Of a stretch of DNA of 38,563 nucleotides, positions 1 through 32,333 are shown one piece after another. Each line of letters starts with the position of its first letter. The first letter of the stretch is position 1. The DNA comes from Candidatus Woykebacteria bacterium RBG_13_40_15 (lineage in GTDB: Bacteria; Patescibacteriota; Microgenomatia; Woykebacterales; RBG-16-39-9b): assembly GCA_001816655.1 (NCBI GenBank), contig MHCP01000011.1:1-38563 (forward strand). Reading direction: 5' to 3'. The translations under genes were made by a program, and so were the position numbers. Below the pieces are notes generated by a model. That model ran no database searches and had not been told where the DNA came from. It worked only from the letters and a program-made list of their open reading frames with translations.

Positions 1-3000
1 CACAGTCTGTCTCGAGAACCTCGCTAACTGCCTAGGCTCTGGTGACATCGAGGCCGTTGGTGATGTAACTAGCGGGGAGGCCTTCACAGATGCAGGCTCA
101 AATGGTACTTCCCTTTGGTTTAACAACTCTGGCTTCCAGGGACAACTAACGGTTGGTACTCTCTCTGACAGCAACAAGACCTACACTCTACCCAATCTTA
201 CTGGAGCAGTTGCACTTAGTGTTGGTTCACTCACAAATGGATCAGTCCTATTTGCAGAAAGTGGTCTGATTTCTCAAGATAACGCAACCTTTTATTGGAA
301 TAACTCAACTGATAGGCTTGGGATTGGGACGGATAACCCTGGGGCTAAACTGGATGTCCGGGGTAATGCGATATTTAATGAGGATAGCGGCGACTACGAT
401 TTCCGAGTCGAAGGTGATAATGAAGCCTATATGATTATGGTTGATGCTGGTACCGACACCTTAGGTCTAGGAGATAATGTACAAGCAGATACTAGATTAT
501 ATATTGGATTTGATACCTTAAGCGTTACTCAAGATGCAAGTAGCGAATTTGTTGATATAAATCCGGCTTTAACCGAAGCCGGTAGCGGCACCCACTCAAT
601 AATGGCGGGACTAAATATCCAAGCTCTCACTTTAAACGATGGTGCTGGAGATACGACTACTGCAACAACTCTTAGGGTAGCGGGCGCACCAAGCGGCGCT
701 ACAAATAATTACGCTCTGTGGATCGATGATGGGACTAGCCGGTTTGATAGCCTAGTACAACTTGGCGTGGATGAACCGGCTCTAACACCGAACATTGCTG
801 GGTCGCTAAGATTAATTTCCGCTGACGATAACGCCTACTCGACAACAATTACCGCAGATACCCAAACTCAAAACATCAATTATACGTTGCCACCAAATGA
901 TGGCAGCCCAAACCAAGTCTTACTCACCGATGGTTTCGGCGACCTTAGTTGGTCTACTGTAACTGGCGCTGGTGGTGTTGATATAAACGGCACTCCTACC
1001 ACGGGGCAGGCAACTTTCTGGTTTGACTCAAATACTATTGAAGGTGAGAATGCCTTCTTTTGGGGTAAGAATAATAATGTCTTAATTATTGGCGCTTCTT
1101 CACCTTCCGATGCAGCCGGCTCACATCTTCAAATCTTTGACAATTCCGGCACAGCGCAGCTTAATCTCCTTTATGACGGATCAAACAGCACTAGTTTCAC
1201 AGTTGATAGTTCTGGTAATTTAACGGTCAACGCTACTGGCACAAAAACAGTGATTTCTGATGACTTGCAAGTTTCGGGTAATGATATTCTAAATTCTGGA
1301 GGAAATTCTGCCATTGATGTCAATTCTCGAACTCTTCAAAACGGGGCTTGGACCGCCAATTCCACCGCCAATCCTGGATTTACCGTCGGCGATGGTTCAA
1401 CCGGCTACCTTAAGGTTGGCGGCTCAACTATATCTGACGCAGCAGGCAATCTCACACTAAACTCTGACACCACTATTTTAGCAATTAGCGACGCTACTAT
1501 TCGAGGGGTGGGAGCTTTGACAATAGAATCAACTACCAGCGACCTCACCCTCGATTCTGGCTCGAATATCGTCAAGATTGCCGATGCCACCTTACTAGGA
1601 AACGGCGCCTTGACGGTCTCTTCTGGAGGGAGTGGAAACCTTACTTTGGATTCTGCTTCAGATACGATAGTTATCGCTGCAACTGACACAACAATTCAAA
1701 GAGTAGCGGCTGGTACATTTACCATAGATCTAAATGACGCTAATACAACCTATTTTGACATTATCAACGGCGGTGCTGGTGTTGCTGATTTGAAAATAAA
1801 CGGCACGCCTCTAAGCGACACCGATGCAACCCCCGGTGCTGCGTTAGTCGGAACTTATGATGAGTTTACCAATTCTAATAGTGCTAATGTTCAAGATGTC
1901 TTGGATGACTTAGATGCCGCGATAACCAGCGGTGGTGGTAGCGCCATTTGGACTGATTCTACCCCAGGTACCGGTGCCGGTGTGATTTACCCAACCTACA
2001 ACACCGATGATCTAGCCATCGGTGGGACTATTGTAAATGCCTCTCCATTCGGCGTTGACGAATCTGAGAACACAATATATATCGGTGAGGGTTCAAATAG
2101 TAATGGAACTATCACTTTCAAAGCTTCCGATGGAGATACTGGTAACTTAGCCTACAACATTGACGATCGGTTTGCTTTTACTGGGGGCGGGGTCCTATTT
2201 GATTTTGGGGCGGCTGAACAATTTATCATTGACGCGACTGACCCGAATAGTAGCTTGGCAGGTGCGATAGTGGACATCGACGTTGATTCTCTCACCGATA
2301 GTGGCATTGGAATCGATCTCAATTATGAATCACTTCTTACTAATAATGCGGGTACAGAAATGCAGTACGCTCTTTCAGTCTCTCCGGTCCAAGGCTCTAC
2401 CGGTGCTAGCGGCACCCATGTACTTTACGGAATATATGTTCAAAACCTAGCCACCTCTGGCGTCCCTTCTGGCACCAACACAGAATATGGTATGCGTATT
2501 GGCACGGGCTACGATTACGGCTTGCAAATTGATGATGGGGTCACTACCGCACTTTTACTCGCTTCCAATGACGGCGACGCGGCTTCTGGGATTACGTTTG
2601 GAACTGGTGCAAACGCTGTCAATCTATATCGAAGTGCAAACAATACTTTACGTACTAATGGTAATTTAATTGTAGATTTGGACTTAACCGTTTCCGGCGG
2701 AGATATTATAGGAGCAAATAAAGCATCGATAGATTTGGGAGAAACAGCTGAGGGCCAAATCAGTTTCTTATCAAACAATGACATAGACAACTACATTTAT
2801 TTATTAACTGAAAGTGACCTTCCCCAGATTTTCTGGGAGGGCTCCGAAACAAATGATCCGGGAGTAAGAGTCAATTCCGACGGAAAACTAGAATACAGAG
2901 ATGACAACGATGCGTCCTGGACTACATTTGAAAGTATCAGCGTTGGTTCTGTCACCTTACAAACAGCCTACAATAATGACGCCGATAGCGCTACTGCTGA

Positions 3001-6000
3001 AATCCTGATGACTGCGAGTGATGGCTCAATCGTCTTTAAAACAATTGGAGGCGCCACCGACACCCAATTCCAAATCGCTGCTGCTTCAGCTCCAGAAATA
3101 GACCTTGTCAACATCACCAACACGGGCTTTGCTACAACGACTAATGGGGTAGATGGCCTGTCCATTGATTTTGTAACTGGCGATGGAGCAAGTGTCACCA
3201 ACAATGCTCTAAATATCGCTGTCACCTCTGGGGGAACAGCTAGCGGTGATATAGTAAACGGCATCAATTTATCACTTTCTGGAGCAGGTGGAACAGAAAC
3301 CGCTATCAATATTGGCTCTGGGTGGGATAAGGTTTTTGTTACAAACGCTGATCCGGTCGCAAGTGCAACAAGCAGCCTGATTGAACTTGGCGCTGCTCTT
3401 GTAGGAGGCTCTGCAAGCGGAACATATCTTGGAATAAACGCGGATGTGGGTTACGCTGGGGATTTCTTGAATTTTCAGGTCAATGGGACAACTAGCGCTA
3501 AATTAACAGCAAGCGGAGACTTGACTCTCGCTGGTGGCGATATCGTAGGAGCAGGCTCAACCGCAATTGATATCGGAGAGGCAACTGGCGGAGACATTAC
3601 TTTTAGCAATTCAGCTGCAGCTACGAACGATACCTTGGCTTTAAGACCTTACGCAGCAGGTGCAGCAACGTTCAAAGGAATTTTAACTTCAAACGACTTA
3701 ACAGCCGATAGAACCTGGGCCTTTCCGGATGCCACCGGGACTGTGGCTCTTAGTACCACTGACAAAAGAGTAGCGACCAAAATTGTCGCTGCGAGTAATT
3801 CCAGTAATCCAGATCAGGCCGATTTTAAAGCCGATGGTGCGGGAGGGACGGACGATGCAGTGACAATTGAAAATGCAATCGCTGCTCTTCCGGCCGGCGG
3901 CGGTGTTGTTTACTTACTTGAGGGAACCTACTATATTGGCGATGTTGCCAGCGATGGTGTAGACATCACCAAATCCAATGTTTCCATCATCGGCGTTGGA
4001 CAAGCCACCATCCTGCAAAGAGGTTGGGATGCCACATCAGACGACGGAGTAATCACCGTTGGTGACGGGGGATCAGCCACGGTTACTGGTGTTACTATCG
4101 CCAACCTTTCTATAAATGGGTGCAGGGCGGTCGCAGGTAGCTGCTCGGTAGCATATACCGGTAGTCAAAATTTTGGTATTTACTTTAATTATAAGGTCAC
4201 TTATTCAACTGTCCGTGAAACCTATCTTTATAGTAGCGACGGCGACACAATTTTCCTCCAAGGTAGTACTACTACCAACAATATTATTCAGGCTAATAGC
4301 TTCAATAGTAATAATGGTGATAATATTGTTTTAATGCTCGCCGTAAAAAACAACGTGCTTGGAAACAACATCTCAAACGGCCCCTGTATATTTCTCTCAA
4401 CCAGCGCGAATAACAACACTATATCGGACAACTACTGCCAATCGGGCTCAAATGGTATCGAAATTTCCGCGAGCAGTAATAATACGATCAGCGGCAATGT
4501 AATCCAATCAACCCTTGCATCTGGAATTGCTAGTATTTACTTATTTGGCGCCAGCAACAATACAGTTACCGCTAACACTATCTCCTCGGCTGGAGACGTT
4601 GGAATTAGTATCGAAGGTTCGAGTAATAACAATATTATTACTGCCAATGTCATAAATGAGGTGGGATCCGATCCTGATGATGGTATATTTATGGTAGATT
4701 CTGACAATAACGTTATTTCGTCCAATCGACTTTTAGACGCAAGTAGCAGCCGCTACGGTATCAACATCTCCAACTCCACCTCTAATTACAATCACCTTAT
4801 AGCCAACGAGATTACTGGATCGGGTTTTGCTTCAGGAAAAATTAACGATGCCGGCACCGGCACCACCATTCAACAACGGGATCAGTTTGAGATTGAATCG
4901 ACAAGGACTTTGGGGACCCTACTTTCCTTCGGCATTCCCCAAAGCACTACTTTGATAGGAGCGCTGACTGGTACCGATATCAACTTGTTCAACAGTCTCA
5001 TAGCCACCAATCAGAGTGTAACCGGCCAATATATTCGTCTCCCCACTGTAACCAATACCGGCACAGGTACTTATAATTATGCGGGTTTGAGTATACCTGA
5101 CATTGTGGGGGGCTTGACCCAAAATAATGCTGCTGGAACAACCAACTTCTACGGCCTTGATCTTGACATCCCGGCTATCACTGAAACAAGTGGTACTATC
5201 AACGCCTATGGGATTGATATCTCAGCTGGGGCGGCGGGAGCGGGAAGCACTTTGCGGGCCTTAAACATTGGCAACGCTAGCGGCGCCAGCACAGATAAAA
5301 CCGCCATCAACATTGGCTCTGGGTGGGATACTGGAGTTTCAATCGCTGAAATAGCAGGAGCTGGCAGTGGTATTGCTATCACCGGCACTGGAGCAAGAAC
5401 CGGTAATTTAATTGATCTTACCACTGACGAGACTGGAGATGGTGATCTAATAGATATTAATGTTAATGGAGCCAAAGCAGCAGGCGGCAACATCATTGAA
5501 ATTGAAACTAATGCTGCTGTTGCCAGTGACATCATCAGCATTACTACTAAAGCAGCCGCTACCTCTGGAAACCTAATCGACCTTAACATAGGTACTGTTG
5601 CTGACAGCGGTGATGCCTTCAATCTAACCATTGGTTCCTTAGCCACCGCCGCCCAAGCATTGGTAGTTTCCAACGCTGCTGCTTCCTCCACAGCAGGATG
5701 GCTCATGGATGTTGACACCTCGGCGGCTTGGACGCAGCCTGCTATTGACGTCGATCTTAACACGGCAATTTCAACAGGTAACTTCCTTGACATAACCTAC
5801 AACAACGTTGCTCACACTGGAAATGCGATTGACCTAAACATGGGAACTAACGTTGCCGGAAATGCGATTGACATATCAATCGCTGGATCCCAAAATGCCA
5901 TCCTGGCCATCTTAGGTGCCATTTCTAGCGGGACTGCCAATGGGCTGAATGTTACTCCCCCAGACATCACCACTGCTGGTGGAACAATCAACGGAATTAA

Positions 6001-9000
6001 TATTGGCAGCATCACCACTTCAGGTGGGGCTGACACGGCTATCAATATTGGCTCTGGGTGGGATGCTTCGATTGGAATTGTTGATAATGTGGCTAACGCA
6101 TTTACCATAAAACAAGGATCAAATTCTTACTTTGACATTAGTACTACTGACCTGACCCCTTCCCTCACCCTAGACGTTCCGGTTCAAGGAGGTACTTCAA
6201 CTAATTTGAATATCGGCAACAATACTGGCAATACTGCGGTAAACCTAAAAGCCGGGACCGGCAACGTAAATGTCACCGGCAACCTCCAAGCCCTGGCTTC
6301 CACAAACTTCAATACTCAATTGGTTGGTGGAGCAGAGTTAGGCGTGTCTGGTGCTAAGGTTTATGTTTCTGGCCGATACGCTTACGAGGTTCAGGATAGT
6401 GATGGTGGTGCCGGATATGAATTCAGAATTTACGATGTTTCCAATCCTGCTTCGCCAACAGCGGTTGGTGGAACCAATTTGGGTTACCTTGCCCAAGGTC
6501 TCCACGTCTCTGGCCGGTATGCTTATGTGACTAATAATTCCGATGACAGTACCGGAAATGAATTTCGCATCTTTGATGTCTCCAATCCCTCTTCTCCTAC
6601 CGAAGTCGGCGGATATAACTTGGGTGCCCACGGCTGGGGAGTATTTGTTTCGGGCCGATACGCTTACGTGGCTAGAGACAGTGCCGCAGGCAATGATCTC
6701 ATTATCTTCGATGTTTCCAACCCAGCTTCTCCAAATCCGGTTGGTGGTGTAGATTTAGGCCAAGGTGCGCCTAAGGTGTATGTTTCTGGGAGATATGCCT
6801 ATGTGGTTAAGGGTTCTAGTGTTGGTACCTGCTCCGGTGCCGATCAAACCGGCTGTGAATTTGTCATTTATGACGTTTCTAATCCCACCTCGCCAACAAC
6901 GGCTGGTTGGTATGATCTTGGAATGACTACGGGGTATGCCTGGGATGTGTATGTTTCTGGGAGATATGCCTATGTGGTTAAGGCAAACAATGGCATTGCC
7001 AACGATTTTCTCATCTTCGATGTCTCCAACCCTACCTCCCCAACAGTAGCTGGTGGAGTAAATCTAGGTTATAACGGCTATGCTGTATATGTGTCAGGCA
7101 GATACGCTTATGTAGTTCAAAGCACCGATAGCGGTACCGGCAATGAACTTCGCGTCTTCGATGTCTCCAATCCAGCCTCCCTTAGCGAAGTCGGGGGGTA
7201 TAATCTAGGTGTTGACGGCTGGGGAGTGTTTGTTTCGGGCCGATACGCTTACGTTTCTAGAGATACTAGCGGTAGCGATGAGTTACTCGTCCTTGACGTT
7301 ACCGGCATTGAAACCACCTCCCTTCTTGCCCATGCTTTTGAGGCCGGGAATGGCCAATTTCGCGATGATCTAATTATCGGCAATCAGCTCCAGGTGACTG
7401 GCGGCGCGGTGATCGGCACCGATGGTCTCCTCTCCAACGGCCCAGTCGGGATAAGCGCTATAAACACCGCTAACTCTGGTTTAGACGCCTTAACTCTCTC
7501 GGGAACTTTGGCAGCCTTTAACGGCTCCGATACCTTCCGCGGTCTTTATCTAAATTACATCAATACTGCCTCTCATACTGGTTCAAATACAATAAACCTT
7601 TTCGATATTGCAAATATTGCTGGCCAGGCTAACGCTACTCTTAACGCAATAAACATTGGGCAGCTCACCTCTAACACCGCCGCTGCCGAAACCGCCATCA
7701 ACATCGGCAGTGGGTGGGACATGGCTATAAATCTGGCGGATAGCTCTTCAATTGGCCTTGGAGCAAGCGCTGGAAGGCTAGCCTTTGCCTTAAATGGGGC
7801 TAGTGCTGACACAGTCACCCTCAATAGCGCCAACTTTGTTGTCCAAAATGATCTTTTGGTTAATCTCTCGGCGATTGACCACGGCGACAGCGCTCCCCAA
7901 GGACTCAAACTTCCTCAAGCAAATACACTTACAGCGATTTCCGGCGGCGGTGAGGGTTACATTGCCTACGACCTTGACGGTAATAATCTCAGTTACTTTG
8001 ATGGTTCAAGTTGGTTAGCCGTAGGCACTTCGAATTGGACCGATGGCGGCACTTATCTTTACCCTAATAATTATGAGTCGGTCCGAGTTGGTAGCGACGC
8101 TACCCATTACATTGACATTGCCCACGACGGAACCGACGCCACCCTCTCTTTTGCCCTTACGAATGCTTTGAATATAAACATTGGGACAATTGATCTTTCC
8201 GCCCAAACAGTTGATGTTACCTTAAACGCGGCCGCTGATGCCCTAAACTTCGACTCTAACACCCTCTCTATAGACGCTTCAAACAACCGAGTTGGAATCG
8301 GACTCAACAATCCAAGTGCTGTTCTAGATGTAACAAACAGCAACACAACTAATCTTTTATCGCTTTCTACCACAGGAGCGGTTACAACTCCTACTGCCCT
8401 TGCAATCTCTGCTACCAGTGGTTCAGGTATAATAACCAACGCGATCGACGTTTCAGATACAGAAATTGTTAACGCTATAAACCTAGGGGAAAATAACATA
8501 TTAATGACCGATTCTGGAACGGTCAATTGGAGAGATGGCACATACAATCTTTTTACCTTTAAGGATTTTTCTACTCAATTTGGTGGGGCTGCTTTGGCAG
8601 GCGCCTGGATAGATAAGAATTCTTATTTTGGTGAAGAGTTTACCAGAGAAAGGGCGCAAGTAAGTATTACAGGTAACTTTACCTTTGGGGATACAACTGC
8701 CTGGGGTTCTTCCGAAGTCGGTGTGTGTACCTGGGACATTCAAGATAATACAGCAAACGGAATTCTCCAGCAGACTTTTAGTGGTGGCACAGCCTGCCTA
8801 CTTTATCTTGGCGATGATGCAGGAACAGCAAGTCTAATCTTTAACGCTAGCAACAGACCTATAATTCAAATGAAGGTAAAGCCTAGTGGGTCGGGCGCTG
8901 CTTATGACTTTTGGGTAGGTCTTGGTGATTCAAATTCAGCCACCACCACTCCGCCGACAAATGGAATATATTTCACGAATAACGATAGCGGTTACTGGAC

Positions 9001-10276
9001 TGGGGTAACCAAAGTCGGAGCCAACTCAACTGTTAAAACTTGTAGCTCAACTATATCCACGACCACATTTGCCTATCTTAGAATCGAAGTAAGAAGTACT
9101 ACTGATGTTCGTTTCTTTGTTGATTCCAATGTTGGTGATGGCATAGTTGAAGAAGAATGTGGAACTAGCACAACCTATATCTATACAGCAGGCGGTTTGG
9201 CAGGAAATATTATGCATGCCTTTGTGGGAAATCTCTATGTTGATTATTTCCGAGTCTGGCAAGATGATTCCATCCCAATAGATTCGGATAGCGAAGAAGG
9301 GCTAGGCTCTAGTGACAGCACCGAAATTATTACTCCAACTTCCGGACATGACATTGCCGGCAGATATTCAGCGGCTGACGCTACAAGTCTATCCGCGGCT
9401 GATTTGGTCAGTTTAGACACAAGCGGAAAGGCTATACTTTCTGGTCAATCGTACGATCCTAATATTCTAGGGGTAATTTCCACTTCGCCGAACCAAATCC
9501 TTGGTTATGATGGCGATTGGACAACCGTAGAAGTATCTCTAACCGGTCACACTCCTATTAAAGTCTCAACGGAAAATGGGGCGATACAGCCTGGAGACCC
9601 ACTCACTAGCTCCTCTACTCCCGGTGTGGCAATGAAAGCCACGCAAAGCGGGCCGATTGTTGGAAAGGCGCTTGAGCCATTTGATGGCTCAGTATCAAGT
9701 ATCACGTATCAAGTATCAGGTGAAGAGTTTGCCGGAGGCAAGATTATGGTGTTTGTGAGCGTGGGATGGTACGTTGCCCCGCTTGGCGATAATCCGCCGG
9801 CTGGCGAAGGTAACTTCACTAGTATCGACGTGGGGACTTTGACGGCTGGAACGATAAATAGCCAAGTGCTTTTTGTCGGCGATCGTAAGCTTAGCATGGC
9901 TGCCACTGGCGCACTAATAGTCGATGGTGAAATGAATATCCTTGGCGACCTCTCGGTTGGAGGCGACCTAAAAGTAGCAGGAGCGATAGATACGAAAGAA
10001 TTGACTACGGAAAAGCTAAATATTGCTACTCCTTCTGCTGAACCTGGCGAAATTTCTAAAGCATCGACTGGAATTGAAATCTTAAAAGCTGGTGAAAATG
10101 TTGTTACTATTAAAACTTCCGCAGTAACAAGCGATTCTTTGATATTTGTCACTCCTACTACTGTGACTGATAAAGTACTTTCTGTAACTAAAAAGATAAC
10201 TGGAGATAGCTTTGAGGTAAAGATATTGAATCCATCGGACCAAGATATACAGTTTAATTGGTGGATTGTGAATTAG
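1..10276 (+). CDS. Giant tail-fibre-like cell-surface protein, 5' truncated by window edge
   Basis: ORF track gives 431..10276, but the same frame is open from base 2 (TVCLENLANCLGSGDIEAVGDV...DRLGIGTDNPGAKLDVRG). Contains tail-fibre-like repeats, beta-helix segment, LVIVD blades and a C-terminal module ending IQFNWWIVN. Confidence 0.93.
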   Translation, partial: TVCLENLANCLGSGDIEAVGDVTSGEAFTDAGSNGTSLWFNNSGFQGQLTVGTLSDSNKTYTLPNLTGAVALSVGSLTNGSVLFAESGLISQDNATFYWNNSTDRLGIGTDNPGAKLDVRGNAIFNEDSGDYDFRVEGDNEAYMIMVDAGTDTLGLGDNVQADTRLYIGFDTLSVTQDASSEFVDINPALTEAGSGTHSIMAGLNIQALTLNDGAGDTTTATTLRVAGAPSGATNNYALWIDDGTSRFDSLVQLGVDEPALTPNIAGSLRLISADDNAYSTTITADTQTQNINYTLPPNDGSPNQVLLTDGFGDLSWSTVTGAGGVDINGTPTTGQATFWFDSNTIEGENAFFWGKNNNVLIIGASSPSDAAGSHLQIFDNSGTAQLNLLYDGSNSTSFTVDSSGNLTVNATGTKTVISDDLQVSGNDILNSGGNSAIDVNSRTLQNGAWTANSTANPGFTVGDGSTGYLKVGGSTISDAAGNLTLNSDTTILAISDATIRGVGALTIESTTSDLTLDSGSNIVKIADATLLGNGALTVSSGGSGNLTLDSASDTIVIAATDTTIQRVAAGTFTIDLNDANTTYFDIINGGAGVADLKINGTPLSDTDATPGAALVGTYDEFTNSNSANVQDVLDDLDAAITSGGGSAIWTDSTPGTGAGVIYPTYNTDDLAIGGTIVNASPFGVDESENTIYIGEGSNSNGTITFKASDGDTGNLAYNIDDRFAFTGGGVLFDFGAAEQFIIDATDPNSSLAGAIVDIDVDSLTDSGIGIDLNYESLLTNNAGTEMQYALSVSPVQGSTGASGTHVLYGIYVQNLATSGVPSGTNTEYGMRIGTGYDYGLQIDDGVTTALLLASNDGDAASGITFGTGANAVNLYRSANNTLRTNGNLIVDLDLTVSGGDIIGANKASIDLGETAEGQISFLSNNDIDNYIYLLTESDLPQIFWEGSETNDPGVRVNSDGKLEYRDDNDASWTTFESISVGSVTLQTAYNNDADSATAEILMTASDGSIVFKTIGGATDTQFQIAAASAPEIDLVNITNTGFATTTNGVDGLSIDFVTGDGASVTNNALNIAVTSGGTASGDIVNGINLSLSGAGGTETAINIGSGWDKVFVTNADPVASATSSLIELGAALVGGSASGTYLGINADVGYAGDFLNFQVNGTTSAKLTASGDLTLAGGDIVGAGSTAIDIGEATGGDITFSNSAAATNDTLALRPYAAGAATFKGILTSNDLTADRTWAFPDATGTVALSTTDKRVATKIVAASNSSNPDQADFKADGAGGTDDAVTIENAIAALPAGGGVVYLLEGTYYIGDVASDGVDITKSNVSIIGVGQATILQRGWDATSDDGVITVGDGGSATVTGVTIANLSINGCRAVAGSCSVAYTGSQNFGIYFNYKVTYSTVRETYLYSSDGDTIFLQGSTTTNNIIQANSFNSNNGDNIVLMLAVKNNVLGNNISNGPCIFLSTSANNNTISDNYCQSGSNGIEISASSNNTISGNVIQSTLASGIASIYLFGASNNTVTANTISSAGDVGISIEGSSNNNIITANVINEVGSDPDDGIFMVDSDNNVISSNRLLDASSSRYGINISNSTSNYNHLIANEITGSGFASGKINDAGTGTTIQQRDQFEIESTRTLGTLLSFGIPQSTTLIGALTGTDINLFNSLIATNQSVTGQYIRLPTVTNTGTGTYNYAGLSIPDIVGGLTQNNAAGTTNFYGLDLDIPAITETSGTINAYGIDISAGAAGAGSTLRALNIGNASGASTDKTAINIGSGWDTGVSIAEIAGAGSGIAITGTGARTGNLIDLTTDETGDGDLIDINVNGAKAAGGNIIEIETNAAVASDIISITTKAAATSGNLIDLNIGTVADSGDAFNLTIGSLATAAQALVVSNAAASSTAGWLMDVDTSAAWTQPAIDVDLNTAISTGNFLDITYNNVAHTGNAIDLNMGTNVAGNAIDISIAGSQNAILAILGAISSGTANGLNVTPPDITTAGGTINGINIGSITTSGGADTAINIGSGWDASIGIVDNVANAFTIKQGSNSYFDISTTDLTPSLTLDVPVQGGTSTNLNIGNNTGNTAVNLKAGTGNVNVTGNLQALASTNFNTQLVGGAELGVSGAKVYVSGRYAYEVQDSDGGAGYEFRIYDVSNPASPTAVGGTNLGYLAQGLHVSGRYAYVTNNSDDSTGNEFRIFDVSNPSSPTEVGGYNLGAHGWGVFVSGRYAYVARDSAAGNDLIIFDVSNPASPNPVGGVDLGQGAPKVYVSGRYAYVVKGSSVGTCSGADQTGCEFVIYDVSNPTSPTTAGWYDLGMTTGYAWDVYVSGRYAYVVKANNGIANDFLIFDVSNPTSPTVAGGVNLGYNGYAVYVSGRYAYVVQSTDSGTGNELRVFDVSNPASLSEVGGYNLGVDGWGVFVSGRYAYVSRDTSGSDELLVLDVTGIETTSLLAHAFEAGNGQFRDDLIIGNQLQVTGGAVIGTDGLLSNGPVGISAINTANSGLDALTLSGTLAAFNGSDTFRGLYLNYINTASHTGSNTINLFDIANIAGQANATLNAINIGQLTSNTAAAETAINIGSGWDMAINLADSSSIGLGASAGRLAFALNGASADTVTLNSANFVVQNDLLVNLSAIDHGDSAPQGLKLPQANTLTAISGGGEGYIAYDLDGNNLSYFDGSSWLAVGTSNWTDGGTYLYPNNYESVRVGSDATHYIDIAHDGTDATLSFALTNALNINIGTIDLSAQTVDVTLNAAADALNFDSNTLSIDASNNRVGIGLNNPSAVLDVTNSNTTNLLSLSTTGAVTTPTALAISATSGSGIITNAIDVSDTEIVNAINLGENNILMTDSGTVNWRDGTYNLFTFKDFSTQFGGAALAGAWIDKNSYFGEEFTRERAQVSITGNFTFGDTTAWGSSEVGVCTWDIQDNTANGILQQTFSGGTACLLYLGDDAGTASLIFNASNRPIIQMKVKPSGSGAAYDFWVGLGDSNSATTTPPTNGIYFTNNDSGYWTGVTKVGANSTVKTCSSTISTTTFAYLRIEVRSTTDVRFFVDSNVGDGIVEEECGTSTTYIYTAGGLAGNIMHAFVGNLYVDYFRVWQDDSIPIDSDSEEGLGSSDSTEIITPTSGHDIAGRYSAADATSLSAADLVSLDTSGKAILSGQSYDPNILGVISTSPNQILGYDGDWTTVEVSLTGHTPIKVSTENGAIQPGDPLTSSSTPGVAMKATQSGPIVGKALEPFDGSVSSITYQVSGEEFAGGKIMVFVSVGWYVAPLGDNPPAGEGNFTSIDVGTLTAGTINSQVLFVGDRKLSMAATGALIVDGEMNILGDLSVGGDLKVAGAIDTKELTTEKLNIATPSAEPGEISKASTGIEILKAGENVVTIKTSAVTSDSLIFVTPTTVTDKVLSVTKKITGDSFEVKILNPSDQDIQFNWWIVN
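3760..4860 (+). other. Right-handed beta-helix (pectate-lyase/NosD-like) segment inside the giant protein
   Basis: ADFKADGAGGTDDAVTIENAIAALPAGGGVVYLLEGTYYI followed by repeated NNTISGN/NNTVTANTI/NNIITANVI/NNVISSNRL coils, as in phage tailspikes. Confidence 0.75.
6330..7310 (+). other. Seven LVIVD-type repeats, probable 7-bladed beta-propeller, inside the giant protein
   Basis: Seven copies of VSGRYAY, each paired with an (F/Y)DVSNPxSPxxxGG-type segment (last blade degenerate: LDVTGIE). Confidence 0.75.
9691..9718. repeat. Heptad tract inside giant CDS 1
   Basis: AGTATCA AGTATCA CGTATCA AGTATCA. Confidence 0.85.
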
Positions 10277-10279
10277 TTA

Positions 10280-10307
10280 AAAGTTCAAAGTGCAAAGTTA
10301 AAAGTCT
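10280..10307. repeat. Heptad tract filling the spacer before four-helix gene 1
   Basis: AAAGTTC AAAGTGC AAAGTTA AAAGTCT, ending at the ATG (10308). Confidence 0.85.
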
Positions 10308-10688
10308 ATGAGAGCTAATAATAATGAAGATTTTAGAAGAAAACTAATAAGTAGGACTTTTGTTTTAGCTAAGAAAGTAATTCACTTAGTAGATAAATCC
10401 CCTAACAAGAGGTCCGCTTGGGTAATTTCCGACCAATTAATAAGGGCCACAACAAGTATTGGAGCAAATATCATCGAGGCGCAAGCGGCAAGCAGCAAAA
10501 AGGATTTTATTAACTTTTTGAATCATGCTCTGAAAAGCGGAAACGAAACAAAATTTTGGTTATCTCTAGCAAAAGAAATCATGCCAGAAACTGCTGATCA
10601 AATCAGCGATCTTCTAAAAGAGGTGGGAGAGTTAACTAAAATTCTCGGATCAAGCATTTCGACACTTAAAGGAAAGAACAAACTTTGA
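10308..10688 (+). CDS. Four-helix bundle protein (23S rRNA IVS / S23 family)
   Basis: 126 aa; AKKVIHLVDKSPNKRSAWVISDQLIRATTSIGANIIEAQAASSKKDFINFLNHALKSGNETKFWL matches the S23 family pattern. Confidence 0.88.
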   Translation: MRANNNEDFRRKLISRTFVLAKKVIHLVDKSPNKRSAWVISDQLIRATTSIGANIIEAQAASSKKDFINFLNHALKSGNETKFWLSLAKEIMPETADQISDLLKEVGELTKILGSSISTLKGKNKL

Positions 10689-10716
10689 ACTCTAAATTGC
10701 AATTTTTAACTTTGAA
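10682..10716. repeat. Heptad tract (opposite orientation) after four-helix gene 1
   Basis: ACTTTGA ACTCTAA ATTGCAA TTTTTAA CTTTGAA; ACTTTGAACT is the exact complement of AGTTCAAAGT at 10282-10291. Confidence 0.75.
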
Positions 10717-10731
10717 TTAAAAATAAGCCAC

Positions 10732-13107: not shown

Positions 13108-13184
13108 TGGTGGACCTGGACGGATTTGAACCGTCGACCTCGCCCGTGCGAGGGGCGCGCTCTGGCCAACTGAGCTACAGGCCC
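13108..13184 (-). tRNA. tRNA-Ala(CGC)
   Basis: GGGCCTGTAGCTCAGTTGGCCAGAGCGCGCCCCTCGCACGGGCGAGGTCGACGGTTCAAATCCGTCCAGGTCCACCA; cloverleaf, anticodon loop CTCGCAC, G3:U70, encoded CCA. Confidence 0.93.
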
Positions 13185-13234
13185 GCAGTAGACACTTAAG
13201 GAAAGTTGAACCCTTAACCCTTCCTATACCAATT

Positions 13235-13310
13235 TGGTGGACCCAGCCGGACTTGAACCGGCAACCTCTTCCATGCCATGGAAGCGCTCTACCAATTGAG
13301 CCATGGGCCC
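13235..13310 (-). tRNA. tRNA-Ala(GGC)
   Basis: GGGCCCATGGCTCAATTGGTAGAGCGCTTCCATGGCATGGAAGAGGTTGCCGGTTCAAGTCCGGCTGGGTCCACCA; anticodon loop ATGGCAT, G3:U70, encoded CCA. Confidence 0.94.
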
Positions 13311-13464: not shown

Positions 13465-14496
13465 TTAAATCTTTCTAATCAGTTCGTCTTGCAAAGTCCT
13501 TATACCCTCCCCACTCATGGCAGAGATAGGTAATACTTTGATCTTCTTATTTTTAAATTGAGATATTTTGTTCTTTAAATCATCATCGGTAAGTAGATCA
13601 ATCTTAGTCAAAATGATAATTTGTGGTTTATCTACTAATTCTTTAGAGTGAGACGACAGTTCATTATTTATAATTGTAAGTTTTAAGGTTGGGTTTTCCT
13701 CTTCGGCCGAGATTAAATGAAGCAGAAGTTTAGTTCTTTCAACATGCCTAAGAAATAGATCACCTAACCCCTTGCCCTTCGAAGCTCCTTCTATCAAACC
13801 AGGAATATCAGCCAAAACTAGCTCTTTTCCGTAGCCTGCCCCCCGAAGCCTTGGCGAAGGGGGGTGGTGCATAACCCCTAAGTTTGGCTCCAGTGTTGTA
13901 AAAGGGTAAGAGGCAATTTTAGGAGTAGCAGAAGTTAATTTTGATAAAAGTGTGCTTTTTCCGGCATTTGGAAGACCTATCAACCCAACATCGGCCAAAA
14001 GTTTCAACTCTAGCACCAATTCAATTTCTTGTCCTTCTTCCCCCGGTTCGTGCCACCGCCATAAATCTTTCTCGCTATATCCTTCTGATATCTTAGATCT
14101 TAGATCTGATTTCTTAATATGGGCATTTCCCCGACCGCCTTTTCCACCTTTGACTATCATTACCTTTTCTCCTACGCGAGTTAAATCTGCAAAAAGATGT
14201 CCTTGGTTGTCAGTTACCTTCGTCCCAGCTGGCACTGATAGAAACAAGGTGCTGCCTGCTGCTCCTTTCTTATGCTTTTCCGCACCTCGAGCGCCGTCAG
14301 TAGCCTTGAAATCCTTCTTATAACGATACGGGAGTAGCGTGGTTAGGTTTTTATCAACCGCTAGATAAACATCACCGCCAGCTCCTCCATCACCACCGTC
14401 CGGTGGTCCAAGGCTTCGTCGCCCTTGCTTCGCGAAGGAGACAGCGCCGCTACCTCCCTTTCCTGCTTTAACTTTTAGCCTAACGTAATCAATCAT
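13465..14496 (-). CDS. obgE: GTPase Obg/CgtA
   Basis: MIDYVRLKVKAGKGGSGAVSFAKQGRRSLGPPDGGDGGAGGDVYL, GLPNAGKSTLLSKLTSA, ADIPGLIEGAS, LTKIDLL. Confidence 0.97.
   Translation of the reverse strand: MIDYVRLKVKAGKGGSGAVSFAKQGRRSLGPPDGGDGGAGGDVYLAVDKNLTTLLPYRYKKDFKATDGARGAEKHKKGAAGSTLFLSVPAGTKVTDNQGHLFADLTRVGEKVMIVKGGKGGRGNAHIKKSDLRSKISEGYSEKDLWRWHEPGEEGQEIELVLELKLLADVGLIGLPNAGKSTLLSKLTSATPKIASYPFTTLEPNLGVMHHPPSPRLRGAGYGKELVLADIPGLIEGASKGKGLGDLFLRHVERTKLLLHLISAEEENPTLKLTIINNELSSHSKELVDKPQIIILTKIDLLTDDDLKNKISQFKNKKIKVLPISAMSGEGIRTLQDELIRKI
13839..13864. repeat. Palindromic (REP-like) element within obgE
   Basis: CCCCCC-GAA-GCC-TT-GGC-GAA-GGGGGG; symmetric palindrome read in frame as part of HHPPSPRLRGAGYGK. 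Confidence 0.7.
14087..14114. repeat. Heptad tract inside obgE
   Basis: GATATCT TAGATCT TAGATCT GATTTCT. Confidence 0.75.
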
Positions 14497-18157: not shown

Positions 18158-18194
18158 AGTGTGTGCATAGTGTACTACTTATCCTTTTTTACTT

Positions 18195-18223
18195 TTGACT
18201 TTTGACTTCAAATATGGTATAAA
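18195..18223 (+). promoter_or_regulatory. Candidate promoter upstream of the leader of the second giant gene
   Basis: TTGACT (18195-18200), 17-nt spacer, TATAAA (18218-18223). Confidence 0.45.
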
Positions 18224-18273: not shown

Positions 18274-21200
18274 ATGAACATTCTGCCCAACGACGACCCC
18301 GTTGGCGGGGTCGTTTTTAAATATAAAGAGTACTTAAAACAAAGCGGTTATTCTACTCCAACCGTTAAAAACTACCTCTCAGATTTACGCTATTTTTGTG
18401 ATTGGCTGAAAAACCATCACAAGGATTTGTTTTCACTGACAAAAGGCGATCTTGATAATTATCAATTTCATCTCTCGATAATCTTCAAAAATAAGCCGTC
18501 GATAAACTCCCGCAAGGCTTCATCGCTTCGCGGGTTTCTGTCCTGGGCTACTAAAGAGCAGATACTTTCTATTCAAGAAACAGCATTAATTCAAACTGAA
18601 AGCAAGCTCACCTCAGCAAAAAAATTAACTTGGTTTCTATCCCTCATCAGCTTCAAGCCAGCCCGCGAAAGAATAAGCCATTTTACTAGCTATAGACCAG
18701 ATTGGTATCACCGCTACCATCGCTGGAGTTTTGCAGCCACTCTCCACTATATAGTCTTGATAAGCTTTCTAGTTGTGGCTGGTGGTTCTTTGATATATTT
18801 CTATATATTTAGACCAGAAATGAACCAGACAAAAAAGGAGTTTGTAGCTGAACTTGGAAGCGTCCTAGCAGCTTCCCCACCAAAGATTCTTTCCTTTCAA
18901 GGTAGACTTACTAACCCAACCACAGGACAGCCAATTATTATTGCTACCAATATAGTATTTAGAATTTACACTTCTACCAGCGGGGACACTGGTAGCCCCT
19001 GTGCCAATACTTGCAAGTGGGAATCGAAAACCTGGAGTGTAACCCCAGACGCAAACGGTATTTTCTCGGTCACTCTTGGGGACACAGGAGCTAGTGATAC
19101 AGAGATTCCAGACACCCTTTTTACTGATAACCCAACTCTTTACTTGGGTGTTAAGGTTGGGGCTGACGCTGAGATGGCCCCAAGACAGAGAATTGCTTCT
19201 TCTTCTTACGCTTTGAACTCTGATGCCCTTGAAGGTTTTCACGGATCCCAATCCCCCGGGGCCAATCAAGTACCGATCCTTGATGGAAGCGGCAACTTAA
19301 TGTTCGCCGGGGCCGCGACAATTGGTACTAGCGCAAATGCCCTGACGCTAGATTCAGCTTCGGGAACACTTGCTCTTGGCTCAGGAACAACGACAATATC
19401 TTCGGCTGGAGCTTTGACTCTAAATTCGACTACTAGCAGCGCTGTTACTCTAGATTCTAGTACCACAGGGACAATTAATATTGGAAACAACGCTAATGCC
19501 AAGACAATTAATATCGGCAATGCCACAGATACTACCCTAGTCAATATTGACTCAGGAACCAGCGGGGTAACTATCGATTCTACCGGTACCGGAGACATAC
19601 TGGTTAATTCAACCGATACTCTTCTACTAGATTCGGCTGGGGTCTTAGAGTTGAATTCGTCAGCTGGAGTAATCTCAATCGGCAACGATGCTGTGGCCCA
19701 AAATATCAATATTGGTACTGGAGCCGCTGCACGAACAATTACAATTGGAAATACAACCACCACTACCGGAATAGTCTTAACCAAAGGCGCCTCTGGTGAA
19801 ATTACCCTTACTGGCTACGATGCTACCTGCACTGCTTTGGAAACTGATGCTGATGGGCACCTAAACTGCGGAACTGACGATGGCGGAGGTGGCGCTCTTC
19901 ACCAAATTACTGCCGCCACTGGTGACAACAGCATAAACAATGCCGCATGGAATCAAGTCTGGAACTGGCAGTTGGCAGGAGCAGAATCAGGCTTTAAATT
20001 TGCCGAAAACGCTGCGTCAACGGGAGGCGGAACAAATGATCAATTTATAGTCGATATTGCTACCCTAGCAACCTCTACGGCAGGACCTCTTCGGGTGACC
20101 TCAAATTCGATAGATACTTCCGATATTGTCTTTAATTTAAACAGCCTTGGGGACATAGAAATCCAGGATGCAGGAGCTGCTTTTGCTACTTTTGCTGACG
20201 ATGGGACGATCACCTTAGGCAAATCTGCCGCAGCATCTGCAATCAACATCGGCACTGGAACAGCCGGGAATACAATTTATATCGGAACTGACAATAGCAC
20301 CAAAGACACTATTTCTATTGGCTCGGCTTTAGATGACGTAGCCATTACTGGTGATGATTGGTCAATGACTAATGCGGGCGTGCTGCAATTTGGAGCAACC
20401 GGAAGCTATGATACCAACCTTTACCGCTCCGCAGCTAACACTTTAAAAACTGATGATTCTATTATTTCCGCCGGACTTGCTTCAGTCAGTGGTAGCAATT
20501 CAGTCTCAAATGTTCCCTACAATCTTCTAACCGACAAGGCTACCACTAACCGAGTGGTCAACCCTTCTTTTGAGGTTAATGTTACTGACGGCTGGCAGGC
20601 TTATGGTGGTGCTGTAGCGGGCGATCTTTCCCAAAACGCAACGCCGTATGTGGGAACTTATTCAATGAGAATTTACAAAACAGGGGCTGCTATTAACGAT
20701 GGGGCACAAACCACAACAATGCCAGTAAGTGCTTCAACAAAGTATGTTGCTTCTGTCTTTGTCATAGCAGTTTCAGGCTCGCCAACATTTAAAATCAGCT
20801 TGACTGGTGACAATAGCGGGCAAACTCAAAGCGGCGAATACACTGCTAGAGCAGTAACTAGATGGCAACGCTTCTTTGTTTATAAACAAAGCAATAGTTC
20901 AGACACAACATTTACTTTTGAAATTTATTCCTCGGCTGCTCAAAATTTTTACATTTACGTTGATGCAGTTCAGCTTGAACAAGTTTCCTGCAATAAGTCT
21001 TCTTGTGCCACTTCCTACGCTGATGGCTCTCTCGGACCAGAGTATGCTTGGACAGGCACGGCCCACAATTCAAGTTCGACTAGAACTACCGGTATTAAAT
21101 ATTTGGGTGGGGGCACTAGCGGGCCGGATCTCTACATTGGGGGCGGTGCTTATTTCGAAGGCGGAAGCGGGGATATTGATCTAAATGGTACGATTAACGC

Positions 21201-22896
21201 TACCGATTCTTCGATATTAAGTTTATATTTCTTAGGCACTCAGTACTTAAGCCCCAACCAATTAGCTATAGCCGACGTTAGTGGGGATGGCAAGGTTAGC
21301 CTCGATGATGATATTATACTTTCTTCTCTTATATACGACACCTATCCCAACAAGTACGACCCGAAAAGATTAATCGGTAATTTATACGGTGCCGGAACTA
21401 CGACACGGTTTGATGTCAACGGAGATATGGACGTCACCGGCAGCACGATTACTTTTGGAAGCTTTGCCAGCTGCGGAGCACTTTCTACAAACAGTTCCGG
21501 CGCTCTTGTGTGCAATACCGGTACCGGCGACACGGCAACTTTTACTGACGCCTCTCCAGGTGTCGTAGCAGATTCTGATGCAACAGAAATGTTTAATGAC
21601 GCCACACGGCCAAATATAACTCCAAATTCAGCTACTCAAACTGTTTTAGTTCATGCATCAGTGCGATTGGACGCTTCAGGAATAGCTGATGCAATAGCGG
21701 CTTTCAGAATTGTCCGTGAGGATGATGGCGGTTCGACTACACCTGTCTGTGATGGTACTGACCCTCAAGTAGGAAATACAATGATCGCTGGTGATCTGTT
21801 ACTATCAACCGATTTTAGTCAAGCCCAAGCTACAGTCTTGGACGCCCCGGCCAGCACCGCCGCCGTCTATTACACTGTCTGTACCAGCACAGATACTAAT
21901 ATGGGCGCGAACGTGCCGACTGCAACAAGTGTGACGGTAACATTAATTGAACTTGGGGCCGACCTTGCGGAAAATTACTATACGACTGATGATTCAATAG
22001 CCCCTGGGCAAATAGTTTCGACTGACAACTCAATACCCGCCGGGGCGGAAAAAACCACCAGAGCTTACGACTCGCAAATCCTCGGCGTTGTTTCCACTGC
22101 TCCTGGAAAAATTCTGGATGATGGGCTAGGCCTGAACTTTGGAAGGGCAATTCCTGTCGCTTTGGTCGGTCGAGTGCCGGTAAAAGTGAATGGTGAAAAC
22201 GGACCCATCGCAGTCGGCGACCTGATAACTAGTTCGTCCACTCCCGGAGTGGGCATGAAGGCTACAAAGGCAGGTTACGTGATCGGGCGGGCTTTAACCT
22301 CCTTCAGCGGTCAAGGAGAAGGTGCTGTAGTTGCTTTCGTAAATACCCAGTACGCAGATCCTGCGAATTTAGAAGCCGAGGGAAATTTGTTAGATTTAAC
22401 CGATTCTAGTTCAACTCCTAGTGCAGAGGCAACCAACTCCTCTTCTCTCAAACTTGACACAGAAAATAATATTGTCGCAACACTTTCTAGTGGGACCAGA
22501 TTTGTCTGGGTCAATTCGCTTGGTAAAGCGCTTGCCTGGATTTCTGATACAGGCGAGGCTTTTTTTGAGAAAGTTACTGCCCTGGTTGGTAATTTCCAAA
22601 AATTGATCTTTGGTGAACTGGTCGCTTCCAAAGACTCGCAAAATGCCGGTCAGGCCAGTTTCGAGCCTGATCAAACCGAAGTGGTTATTGAATCAGAAAA
22701 AGTGACCGAAGACTCTCTAATCTACGTTACCGCGGCAACTAAAACTGACGGTATTTCCCTTTACATTAAGGAGCAAAGGCCTGGGGAAGGCTTTACAGTG
22801 GCTCTGGAACGATCTAGCGGTGATCTACCAAACGAGGCAACAGCTTCAGCAACTCAAGCGATCAAGTTCAATTGGCTAATTATTAACCGGGAATAG
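18274..22896 (+). CDS. Second giant surface protein: N-terminal tyrosine-recombinase SAM-like domain, TM helix, tail-fibre-like repeats, CBM-like domain, dockerin-like pair and conserved C-terminal module
   Basis: FKYKEYLKQSGYSTPTVKNYLSDLRYFCDWLKNHHK; TM YIVLISFLVVAGGSLIYFYIF; ILSFQGRLTNPTTGQP; C-term IKFNWLIINRE. Exact start uncertain. Confidence 0.9.
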   Translation: MNILPNDDPVGGVVFKYKEYLKQSGYSTPTVKNYLSDLRYFCDWLKNHHKDLFSLTKGDLDNYQFHLSIIFKNKPSINSRKASSLRGFLSWATKEQILSIQETALIQTESKLTSAKKLTWFLSLISFKPARERISHFTSYRPDWYHRYHRWSFAATLHYIVLISFLVVAGGSLIYFYIFRPEMNQTKKEFVAELGSVLAASPPKILSFQGRLTNPTTGQPIIIATNIVFRIYTSTSGDTGSPCANTCKWESKTWSVTPDANGIFSVTLGDTGASDTEIPDTLFTDNPTLYLGVKVGADAEMAPRQRIASSSYALNSDALEGFHGSQSPGANQVPILDGSGNLMFAGAATIGTSANALTLDSASGTLALGSGTTTISSAGALTLNSTTSSAVTLDSSTTGTINIGNNANAKTINIGNATDTTLVNIDSGTSGVTIDSTGTGDILVNSTDTLLLDSAGVLELNSSAGVISIGNDAVAQNINIGTGAAARTITIGNTTTTTGIVLTKGASGEITLTGYDATCTALETDADGHLNCGTDDGGGGALHQITAATGDNSINNAAWNQVWNWQLAGAESGFKFAENAASTGGGTNDQFIVDIATLATSTAGPLRVTSNSIDTSDIVFNLNSLGDIEIQDAGAAFATFADDGTITLGKSAAASAINIGTGTAGNTIYIGTDNSTKDTISIGSALDDVAITGDDWSMTNAGVLQFGATGSYDTNLYRSAANTLKTDDSIISAGLASVSGSNSVSNVPYNLLTDKATTNRVVNPSFEVNVTDGWQAYGGAVAGDLSQNATPYVGTYSMRIYKTGAAINDGAQTTTMPVSASTKYVASVFVIAVSGSPTFKISLTGDNSGQTQSGEYTARAVTRWQRFFVYKQSNSSDTTFTFEIYSSAAQNFYIYVDAVQLEQVSCNKSSCATSYADGSLGPEYAWTGTAHNSSSTRTTGIKYLGGGTSGPDLYIGGGAYFEGGSGDIDLNGTINATDSSILSLYFLGTQYLSPNQLAIADVSGDGKVSLDDDIILSSLIYDTYPNKYDPKRLIGNLYGAGTTTRFDVNGDMDVTGSTITFGSFASCGALSTNSSGALVCNTGTGDTATFTDASPGVVADSDATEMFNDATRPNITPNSATQTVLVHASVRLDASGIADAIAAFRIVREDDGGSTTPVCDGTDPQVGNTMIAGDLLLSTDFSQAQATVLDAPASTAAVYYTVCTSTDTNMGANVPTATSVTVTLIELGADLAENYYTTDDSIAPGQIVSTDNSIPAGAEKTTRAYDSQILGVVSTAPGKILDDGLGLNFGRAIPVALVGRVPVKVNGENGPIAVGDLITSSSTPGVGMKATKAGYVIGRALTSFSGQGEGAVVAFVNTQYADPANLEAEGNLLDLTDSSSTPSAEATNSSSLKLDTENNIVATLSSGTRFVWVNSLGKALAWISDTGEAFFEKVTALVGNFQKLIFGELVASKDSQNAGQASFEPDQTEVVIESEKVTEDSLIYVTAATKTDGISLYIKEQRPGEGFTVALERSSGDLPNEATASATQAIKFNWLIINRE
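18293..18318 (+). terminator. Intrinsic-terminator-like hairpin overlapping the predicted start of the second giant ORF
   Basis: ACGACCCCG-TTGG-CGGGGTCGT (9 bp, perfect) followed by a T tract ending at 18318. Confidence 0.65.
20545..20995 (+). other. Carbohydrate-binding-module-like (jelly-roll) region in the second giant protein
   Basis: NRVVNPSFEVNVTDGWQAYGG...TRWQRFFVYKQSNSSDTTFTFEIYSSAAQNFYIYVDAVQLEQ. Confidence 0.65.
21171..21345 (+). other. Dockerin-like calcium-binding duplicated motif
   Basis: GDIDLNGTINATDSSILSLYFLG...IADVSGDGKVSLDDDIILSSLIY. Confidence 0.65.
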
Positions 22897-22928
22897 TTGG
22901 TAGTTGGTATTTAGTATTATGTATAAAA
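22894..22928. repeat. Heptad tract filling the spacer before four-helix gene 2
   Basis: TAGTTGG TAGTTGG TATTTAG TATTATG TATAAAA, from the upstream stop codon to the ATG at 22929. Confidence 0.82.
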
Positions 22929-23309
22929 ATGAGAACAGAAAAGATAAAATCTTTTACTGATTTAACAGCATGGAAAGAGGCTCACAAATTAGTACTCGCG
23001 ATTTACAAAGTTGTAAAAACATTTCCAAAAGAAGAAAAATTCTGTTTAATTGATCAGATCAGGAGGGCATCTATTTCTGTTTCCTCCAATATTGCCGAAG
23101 GTTTTTCAAGGAAATCGGATTTGGAAAAGAGCCATTTTTACTATCAGGCGCTTGGTTCTTTAACTGAATTACAAAACCAATTATTAGTCGCAAGAGACGT
23201 TGGTTACATTAAAGAAAAGGCCTTTCTAGAACTAGCTAATCAAACAATAGTAGTCAGCAAATTGATTAATTCTTTAATAAGATATTTGAAGGGGAAAAAT
23301 AATACCTAA
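22929..23309 (+). CDS. Four-helix bundle protein (23S rRNA IVS / S23 family)
   Basis: FTDLTAWKEAHKLVLAIYKVVKTFPKEEKFCLIDQIRRASISVSSNIAEGFSRKSDLEKSHFYYQALGSLTELQNQLLVARDVGYI. Confidence 0.95.
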   Translation: MRTEKIKSFTDLTAWKEAHKLVLAIYKVVKTFPKEEKFCLIDQIRRASISVSSNIAEGFSRKSDLEKSHFYYQALGSLTELQNQLLVARDVGYIKEKAFLELANQTIVVSKLINSLIRYLKGKNNT

Positions 23310-23336
23310 TACTTACTACTCAATACTGAATACTAA
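23302..23336. repeat. Heptad tract (opposite orientation) after four-helix gene 2
   Basis: AATACCT AATACTT ACTACTC AATACTG AATACTA. Confidence 0.82.
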
Positions 23337-30775: not shown

Positions 30776-30834
30776 GTTCTAGGTTTTAGGTTTCAAATTT
30801 TACGCCCTAGACCTTAGAACTTAGAACTTAGAAC
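30776..30834. repeat. Inverted heptad arms downstream of rho
   Basis: GTTCTAG GTTTTAG GTTTCAA ... CTAGACC TTAGAAC TTAGAAC TTAGAAC. Confidence 0.85.
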
Positions 30835-30842
30835 ATAAACCC

Positions 30843-32078: not shown

Positions 32079-32257
32079 ACAAGTAGAATTTAGCCTGCCT
32101 GCCAACAGGCAGAACTTAATAATTAAGAATTAAGAACGAAAAATTAATTTCTTTATAATCAACGGTCAAAATTTCCATCGCTATTGGGAAAACAAAACTT
32201 GCGAGGTTAAAAATCACCCACATTTAATCACACAAAATAGCATTTGTCAACACTATT

Positions 32258-32333
32258 GATCTAGGTTATATGTTGTAGGTTCTAGGAAAAACCAATTTCA
32301 TACATCCTAGACCCTAGAACCTAAATCAAAATT
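32258..32333. repeat. Inverted heptad arms between rho and the LPNTG gene
   Basis: GATCTAG GTTATAT GTTGTAG GTTCTAG ... CCTAGAC CCTAGAA CCTAAAT; 11-bp perfect pairing TAGGTTCTAGG/CCTAGAACCTA. Confidence 0.85.

Follow-up and report, generated by a model that had tools for sequence, protein, structure and literature searches.

Inverted arrays of element-specific short words flank S23 genes that behave as units inserted between genes

We analyzed a stretch of 38,563 nucleotides from Candidatus Woykebacteria bacterium RBG_13_40_15 (contig MHCP01000011.1, positions 1 to 38,563; hereafter the window), which carries two genes for S23 four-helix-bundle proteins, each set between inverted arrays of a short tandem word. 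The first of these units, element 1, follows a giant surface-protein open reading frame (ORF; 2-10276) whose TAG stop codon ends at 10276. The 5' arm of element 1 (10275..10305, forward strand; AGTTAAAAGTTCAAAGTGCAAAGTTAAAAGT) is composed of tandem 7-nt units with an AGT core (AGTTAAA AGTTCAA AGTGCAA AGTTAAA AGT) and takes in the last two bases of that stop codon. The S23 gene (10308..10688, forward strand, 126 aa) begins with an ATG 2 bases past the end of the arm, and its TGA stop codon (10686-10688) lies inside the 3' arm (10681..10720, reverse strand), an inverted copy of the 5' word that is weaker and has one register break.

The arms were scored against simulated sequence with the dinucleotide make-up of the window. 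The lag-7 score of the 5' arm, 15.2, was matched by none of 20,000 simulated 50-mers; the 3' arm had a lag-7 P of 0.0034, and the complementarity between the two arms a P of 0.0006. Across the window there were 8 lag-7 arrays against an expectation of 0, and none at lag 5 or at lags 8-11. Three of the eight are S23 arms and five lie away from S23 genes. Together these results bear out, at 10274-10720, the arm-gene-arm anatomy that an original prediction, made from the sequence alone, had described. That prediction had also noted a 10-bp complement between the arms, and both 10-mers are present where it placed them (AGTTCAAAGT at 10282 and ACTTTGAACT at 10682); since ACTTTGAACT recurs at 12766, the exact 10-mer alone is unremarkable.

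The second unit, element 2, has cleaner arms. The TAG stop codon of the gene upstream (18274-22896, 1540 aa) is the first TAG of the 5' arm (22894..22924, forward strand; TAGTTGG TAGTTGG TATTTAG TATTATG TAT), which is followed by an S23 (23S_rRNA_IVP) gene (22929..23309, forward strand, 126 aa). The 3' arm (23300..23334, reverse strand) is inverted, reads AGTATTC AGTATTG AGTAGTA AGTATTA as the reverse complement, and runs across the S23 stop codon.

In a profile search the element 1 protein was assigned to S23 (PF05635, 23S_rRNA_IVP) with E=8e-22, and the two S23 proteins of the window scored 77.9 and 125.5 bits against a curated PF05635 cut-off of 33.8. The predicted S23 model, with a predicted local distance difference test (pLDDT) value of 91, resembles the four-helix bundles 2GSC and 2RLD with template modeling (TM) scores of 0.73-0.88; each of these solved relatives has 5 chains per entry. 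The model also resembles Avd of diversity-generating retroelements (DGRs; 4DWL, 8UB7), with TM scores of about 0.7-0.8.

Inverted arms are a general feature of S23 genes. The host genome has 5 S23 genes and all 5 have inverted tandem arms, each with a word of its own: AGTTCAA, AGTTGGT/AGTATTN, AGTGTCA, AGTAAGC and a looser AGTNNNT. We examined 169 S23 loci, 89 of them from relatives at the class level and 80, from a wide scan with a consensus S23 sequence as the query, from many other phyla, including Bacteroidota, Omnitrophota, Acidobacteria, Atribacterota and Deltaproteobacteria. The upstream arm, when compared with the reverse complement of the downstream arm of the same element, matched with a score of at least 12 at 77.5% of the class-level loci and 80% of the other-phylum loci, as compared with 4.7% when arms were swapped between elements, 0% for distant flanks and 4.5% of 66 small control genes. 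The pattern by which the original prediction was to be judged wrong, S23 genes lacking arms, was not seen at about four fifths of the loci. Furthermore, at the 89 class-level loci, lag 7 outscored every other lag upstream of the gene in 72% of cases and downstream in 63%, versus 11-12% in flanks 320 nt off. Period 7 is the commonest and periods of 8, 9 or 10 nt occur in some elements (6-10 nt overall), with both arms of one element mostly having the same period.

Blind alignment of the arrays of period 7 revealed a common A-G-T core (0.74, 0.80, 0.61), and the arrays of period 8 have a common A-A-G-T core; both far exceed a column-permuted null. An (A/T)AGT core is common to the elements, and the other letters of the word differ from element to element. 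The core is directed toward the gene in 87% of upstream and 77% of downstream arrays, giving the two arms a convergent polarity. Additionally, similarity between S23 proteins predicts similarity between their words after control for GC (partial rho 0.25-0.31, permutation sd 0.05, p=0.003), a trend that persists below 50% protein identity, and the period tracks the S23 tree, with 21 changes as opposed to a mean of 30.3 and a minimum of 25 in 200 shuffles. Word and period thus track the S23 protein, which is the pattern expected if the protein recognizes the word.

The original prediction interpreted the arms as the complementary ends of an S23-encoding intervening sequence (IVS) moved out of 23S rRNA. 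In order to assess the arms as a stem, whole units were shuffled within one arm and the match to the other arm was rescored. Of the 67 elements in which both arrays were good, only 3% reached p<=0.05 and the median p was 0.64. The order of the units is therefore unmatched between arms, so that the complementarity comes from inverted arrays of one word; a stem whose register is maintained by base pairing is rejected by this test, and it is mainly for this reason that we do not accept the interpretation of the arms as an IVS stem. An origin in rRNA also lacks support. A check of the host's own 23S rRNA gene for an S23 IVS, as the original prediction proposed, found the 2,999-nt, full-model gene free of any S23 insert, and none of the listed S23 genes of relatives falls within any 23S gene found. 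What stands of that proposal is that the arms and the gene form one unit and that this unit has a relation to IVSs. The 23S IVS of Coxiella carries tandem heptamers (GACAGAT x3) just before its S23 ORF (PMC4990558), so that rRNA IVSs and S23 units look related, and it is more economical to regard the IVS as one landing site of a wider family of S23 units than to suppose an exit from rRNA. As a separate observation, some relatives have 23S genes that extend over about 4.1 kb and so exceed the model length by more than 1 kb, with inserts other than S23 (G046:C1:780497-784643, G016:C1:391605-395777 and G024:C8:31404-35500).

Comparison of related sites indicates that the S23 unit inserts between genes. 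Two genomes from the host's family (G001 and G003) provide empty sites of the kind that the original prediction had suggested seeking: in both, the giant surface-protein gene and the tetratricopeptide repeat (TPR) gene at the element 1 site are adjacent, with no S23 gene and no arms. Three states were observed between pilC and pilD: the site is empty in G006, holds only a palindrome of AGTATCA-type units in G002, and holds a full S23 element in G000, the 3' terminus of which (TGATACATGATACAA) closely resembles the G002 palindrome. S23 genes occupy the same place in G015 and G019 with unrelated arms, and two genomes of one genus carry clearly different S23 genes, also with different arms, at a place where the flanks share 72-74% identity. 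Cyanobacterial plasmids have empty sites at about 85-92% identity; sites with about 90-92% identity lack a 507-nt unit that is present in a Calothrix plasmid, with about 10-13 nt of the spacer replaced and no target duplication seen. At two sites a spacer of about 10-14 nt was seemingly replaced. In Nostoc, a unit is set antisense between nrdA and nrdB, where one relative is empty, and a Pseudanabaena plasmid carries a unit between cas6 and cas4, a position that in the sister plasmid holds a geneless array with a different word. Empty sites free of any array were found in G001, G003 and G006 and at five further loci (L246-L248, L250 and L251). In 91 elements the stop codon of the upstream gene coincides with the edge of the array or lies close to it, and in 44 of these it was TAG, as compared with 60 among 270 control genes (p=3e-6), a figure that is approximate because the control pools genomes. 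Overall, the S23 unit behaves like an inserted element.

Arrays also occur in a geneless state. Within the window there are two inverted heptad arrays with no gene, a palindrome of TTCTAGG-type units (30776..30837), which may be a non-autonomous copy or a remnant, and a second, read by eye, at 32258..32325 (TCTAGGT...CCTAGACCCTAGAACCTA). Further geneless heptad arrays lie in frame within the giant ORF (AGTATCA; 9691..9721, forward strand), between genes (AGTCAAA as the reverse complement; 18186..18208, reverse strand), within the reverse-strand ORF 13465-14496 (14084..14114, reverse strand) and, as a weak array, at 32116..32143 (forward strand). The array at 9691-9721 gives the giant surface protein a repetitive peptide, as has been described for TAACTGA arrays in ORFs (PMC4679880). 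In sampled stretches of genomes, heptad arrays away from S23 genes numbered 27 per 200 kb in genomes with S23, about half of them from one genome (G046), and 3 per 196 kb in genomes free of S23; at lags other than 7 there was mostly little difference between the two. In G046 we also observed mosaic islands of up to 580 bp in which many heptad words stand in phase (L200, G046:C1:100000-119999, e.g. 7744-8169 and 19334-19914). These islands recur about eight times within this 20-kb stretch, in both orientations, and may be nested heptad elements.

Several other features of these loci are worth recording. A similar C-terminal motif closes both giant genes upstream of the window's S23 elements, FNWWIVN for 2-10276 and FNWLIINRE for 18274-22896, and an ending of the FNWW/FNWL/FDW/FDY type is also present in the gene upstream of the L032 S23 and in giant genes of G003, G001 and G011 (L227, L228 and L229). 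The homologous site in G011 holds another four-helix-type gene, with heptad-like words within the coding region. The S23 element of L245 (NZ_CP112875.1), between cas6 and cas4 of a plasmid type I-D CRISPR locus, has very long AAAAGCT arrays. Adjacent tRNA-Ala genes (CGC and GGC anticodons) lie on the minus strand of the window at 13108-13310.

On balance, we favor a reading in which the S23 gene and its inverted arm arrays form a mobile-element-like cassette whose S23 ring probably binds its own arm word. The cassette would comprise an S23 gene with an array of about 4-5 units on either side, the two being inverted and made of an element-specific (A/T)AGT-core word of 7 nt (6-10 nt), and would enter the gap that separates one gene's stop codon from the start of the next, where its first TAG would often become the upstream stop. 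S23 would form a ring, of 5 chains to judge from the solved relatives and with an Avd-like fold, and this ring may bind the repeated words in both arms of its own element, perhaps with one repeat per subunit, in nucleic acid that would be single-stranded or melted. Both ends could thus be held together for copying or insertion, the chemistry being supplied by other cell enzymes or by another element, and geneless arrays would be non-autonomous copies or remnants. About five units per arm would suit one word per S23 subunit.

Neither of two candidate mobilizers appears to be required. Reverse transcriptase (RT) is encoded in 10 of 59 relatives and in none of several S23-rich genomes, S23 copy number is uncorrelated with its presence (rho 0.09), and the host genome's sole RT lies on another contig. 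A Y1/RAYT transposase had 0 matches in the host genome and a copy-number rho of 0.23 (p=0.08). Carriage by phages is likewise rejected, as the window's second S23 had no match in phages.

It is important to realize that a number of observations weigh against the cassette reading. Between the arms there is only the S23 ORF, with no nuclease, transposase or recombinase encoded, and detectable arms are absent from about 20% of S23 loci. Near-identical copies at two sites of one genome were not found, movement was not directly seen, and the two best-resolved sites displayed no target duplication. Shared descent could account for part of the correlation between word and protein. The median numbers of units per arm, 5.0 for period 7 and 5.1 for period 8, come from a measure biased by the detection threshold, and four units is the preferred array size in Xanthomonas (PMC4692102). 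Finally, geneless arrays were on average no closer to resident than to foreign S23 arms (22 arrays, p=0.40); there is thus no overall excess of copies of resident arms, though a good match to resident arms was found for some arrays, 9691-9721 among them.

The strongest alternative, which we nevertheless consider unlikely, is autogenous regulation at the RNA level, in which the 5' array of the mRNA would be a TRAP-like landing strip at which S23 represses translation of its own message, the 3' array in inverted orientation would mask or terminate, and the units would have spread by ordinary horizontal transfer. This would fit the position of the 5' array shortly upstream of the S23 gene, at a median of 19 nt from where the domain begins, the action of Avd, which has the same fold, in an RNA-RT complex (8UB7), and the finding that most such arrays in Xanthomonas are transcribed (PMC4692102). 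However, it leaves unexplained the same word inverted in the 3' arm, the geneless palindromes, insertion antisense to host operons (L244) and replacement at one site between sister species. Less probable still is that the arrays came first, with slippage or structural elements at gene ends making short-period arrays in or beside which S23 genes later inserted. Geneless arrays do occur, as seen for the majority of lag-7 arrays in the window, for the pilC-pilD palindrome of a relative and for the sister plasmid of L245, yet the word and period track the S23 protein and its tree, several empty sites are array-free, and heptad arrays are far rarer in the stretches sampled from genomes without S23. 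Export of an rRNA IVS from 23S, with arms that pair into a stem cut by RNase III, is very improbable: it shares a protein family with the S23 units and has the Coxiella IVS, with its heptamers and complementary ends, as a precedent (PMC4990558), but the host 23S is free of an IVS, the listed S23 genes of relatives lie outside 23S, and the order of units in one arm is not mirrored in the other.

If S23 units are indeed mobile-element-like cassettes, they might further represent an undescribed class of mobile element present in many phyla, whose sole gene encodes an Avd-like ring protein and whose ends, built from inverted tandem copies of a word particular to each element, are read one repeat per subunit. 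In this tentative extension, which we hold with less confidence, the heptamer arrays of Xanthomonas, Nostoc and Beggiatoaceae would be geneless copies and the IVSs would be landings in rRNA. S23 and related four-helix-bundle genes are common across bacteria with function so far unassigned, and the word beside each gene permits a direct binding test.

Repetitive extragenic palindromes (REPs) and bacterial interspersed mosaic elements (BIMEs), together with their RAYT (Y1) genes, offer a similar arrangement of geneless extragenic palindromes plus rarer gene-bearing copies between genes. They differ in that the partner is a Y1 transposase, whereas the gene of the S23 unit encodes a four-helix bundle and its arms are tandem words. 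Similarly, the DGR protein Avd has its fold in common with S23, but the S23 unit is without reverse transcriptase or template repeat. The 23S rRNA IVS of Coxiella resembles the S23 unit in its S23 ORF, length of about 430 bp, complementary ends, upstream GACAGAT heptamers and sporadic distribution; in contrast, its site is helix 45 of 23S rRNA, from which RNase III excises it, while S23 units lie between protein genes and their arms are not matched in order.

Short heptamer arrays have also been described apart from S23. Xanthomonas and Nostoc contain hundreds of GGGAATC or GGGGA(C/T)T arrays, described as G-quadruplex repeats and generally not associated with mobile elements, with 70-75 convergent inverted pairs per Xanthomonas genome (PMC4692102). 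Like the S23 arms, these arrays have few units and lie between aligned ORFs, in Xanthomonas often as convergent pairs near stop codons. The S23 structure 2GSC comes from the same Xanthomonas genome that was studied there, although the text of that paper makes no mention of S23. They differ in having one G-rich word per species, whereas each S23 element has its own word, not of the G-rich quadruplex type (AGTTCAA). TAACTGA direct repeats in Beggiatoaceae, Cyanobacteria and Bacteroidetes, for whose spread "no mechanism is evident" (PMC4679880), are likewise heptamers of 2-6 units at gene starts, patchy over phyla, and their complement TCAGTTA contains AGT. However, they are a single fixed word, mostly in one orientation, with no link to S23 drawn, and none was found beside S23 in the loci examined here. 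A literature text search, conducted outside subscription papers and preprints, found no link of heptamer arrays or IVSs to non-rRNA S23 genes. We conclude that the published arrays of Xanthomonas, Nostoc and Beggiatoaceae are probably geneless relatives of S23 units, and the insertion behavior of these units may also explain such long-puzzling 7-letter repeats in other bacteria. If this link holds, it would unite S23 rRNA IVSs, the heptamer arrays and Avd-like rings, so far reported apart, and would point to an element that may know its ends by a repeat and not by a fixed sequence.

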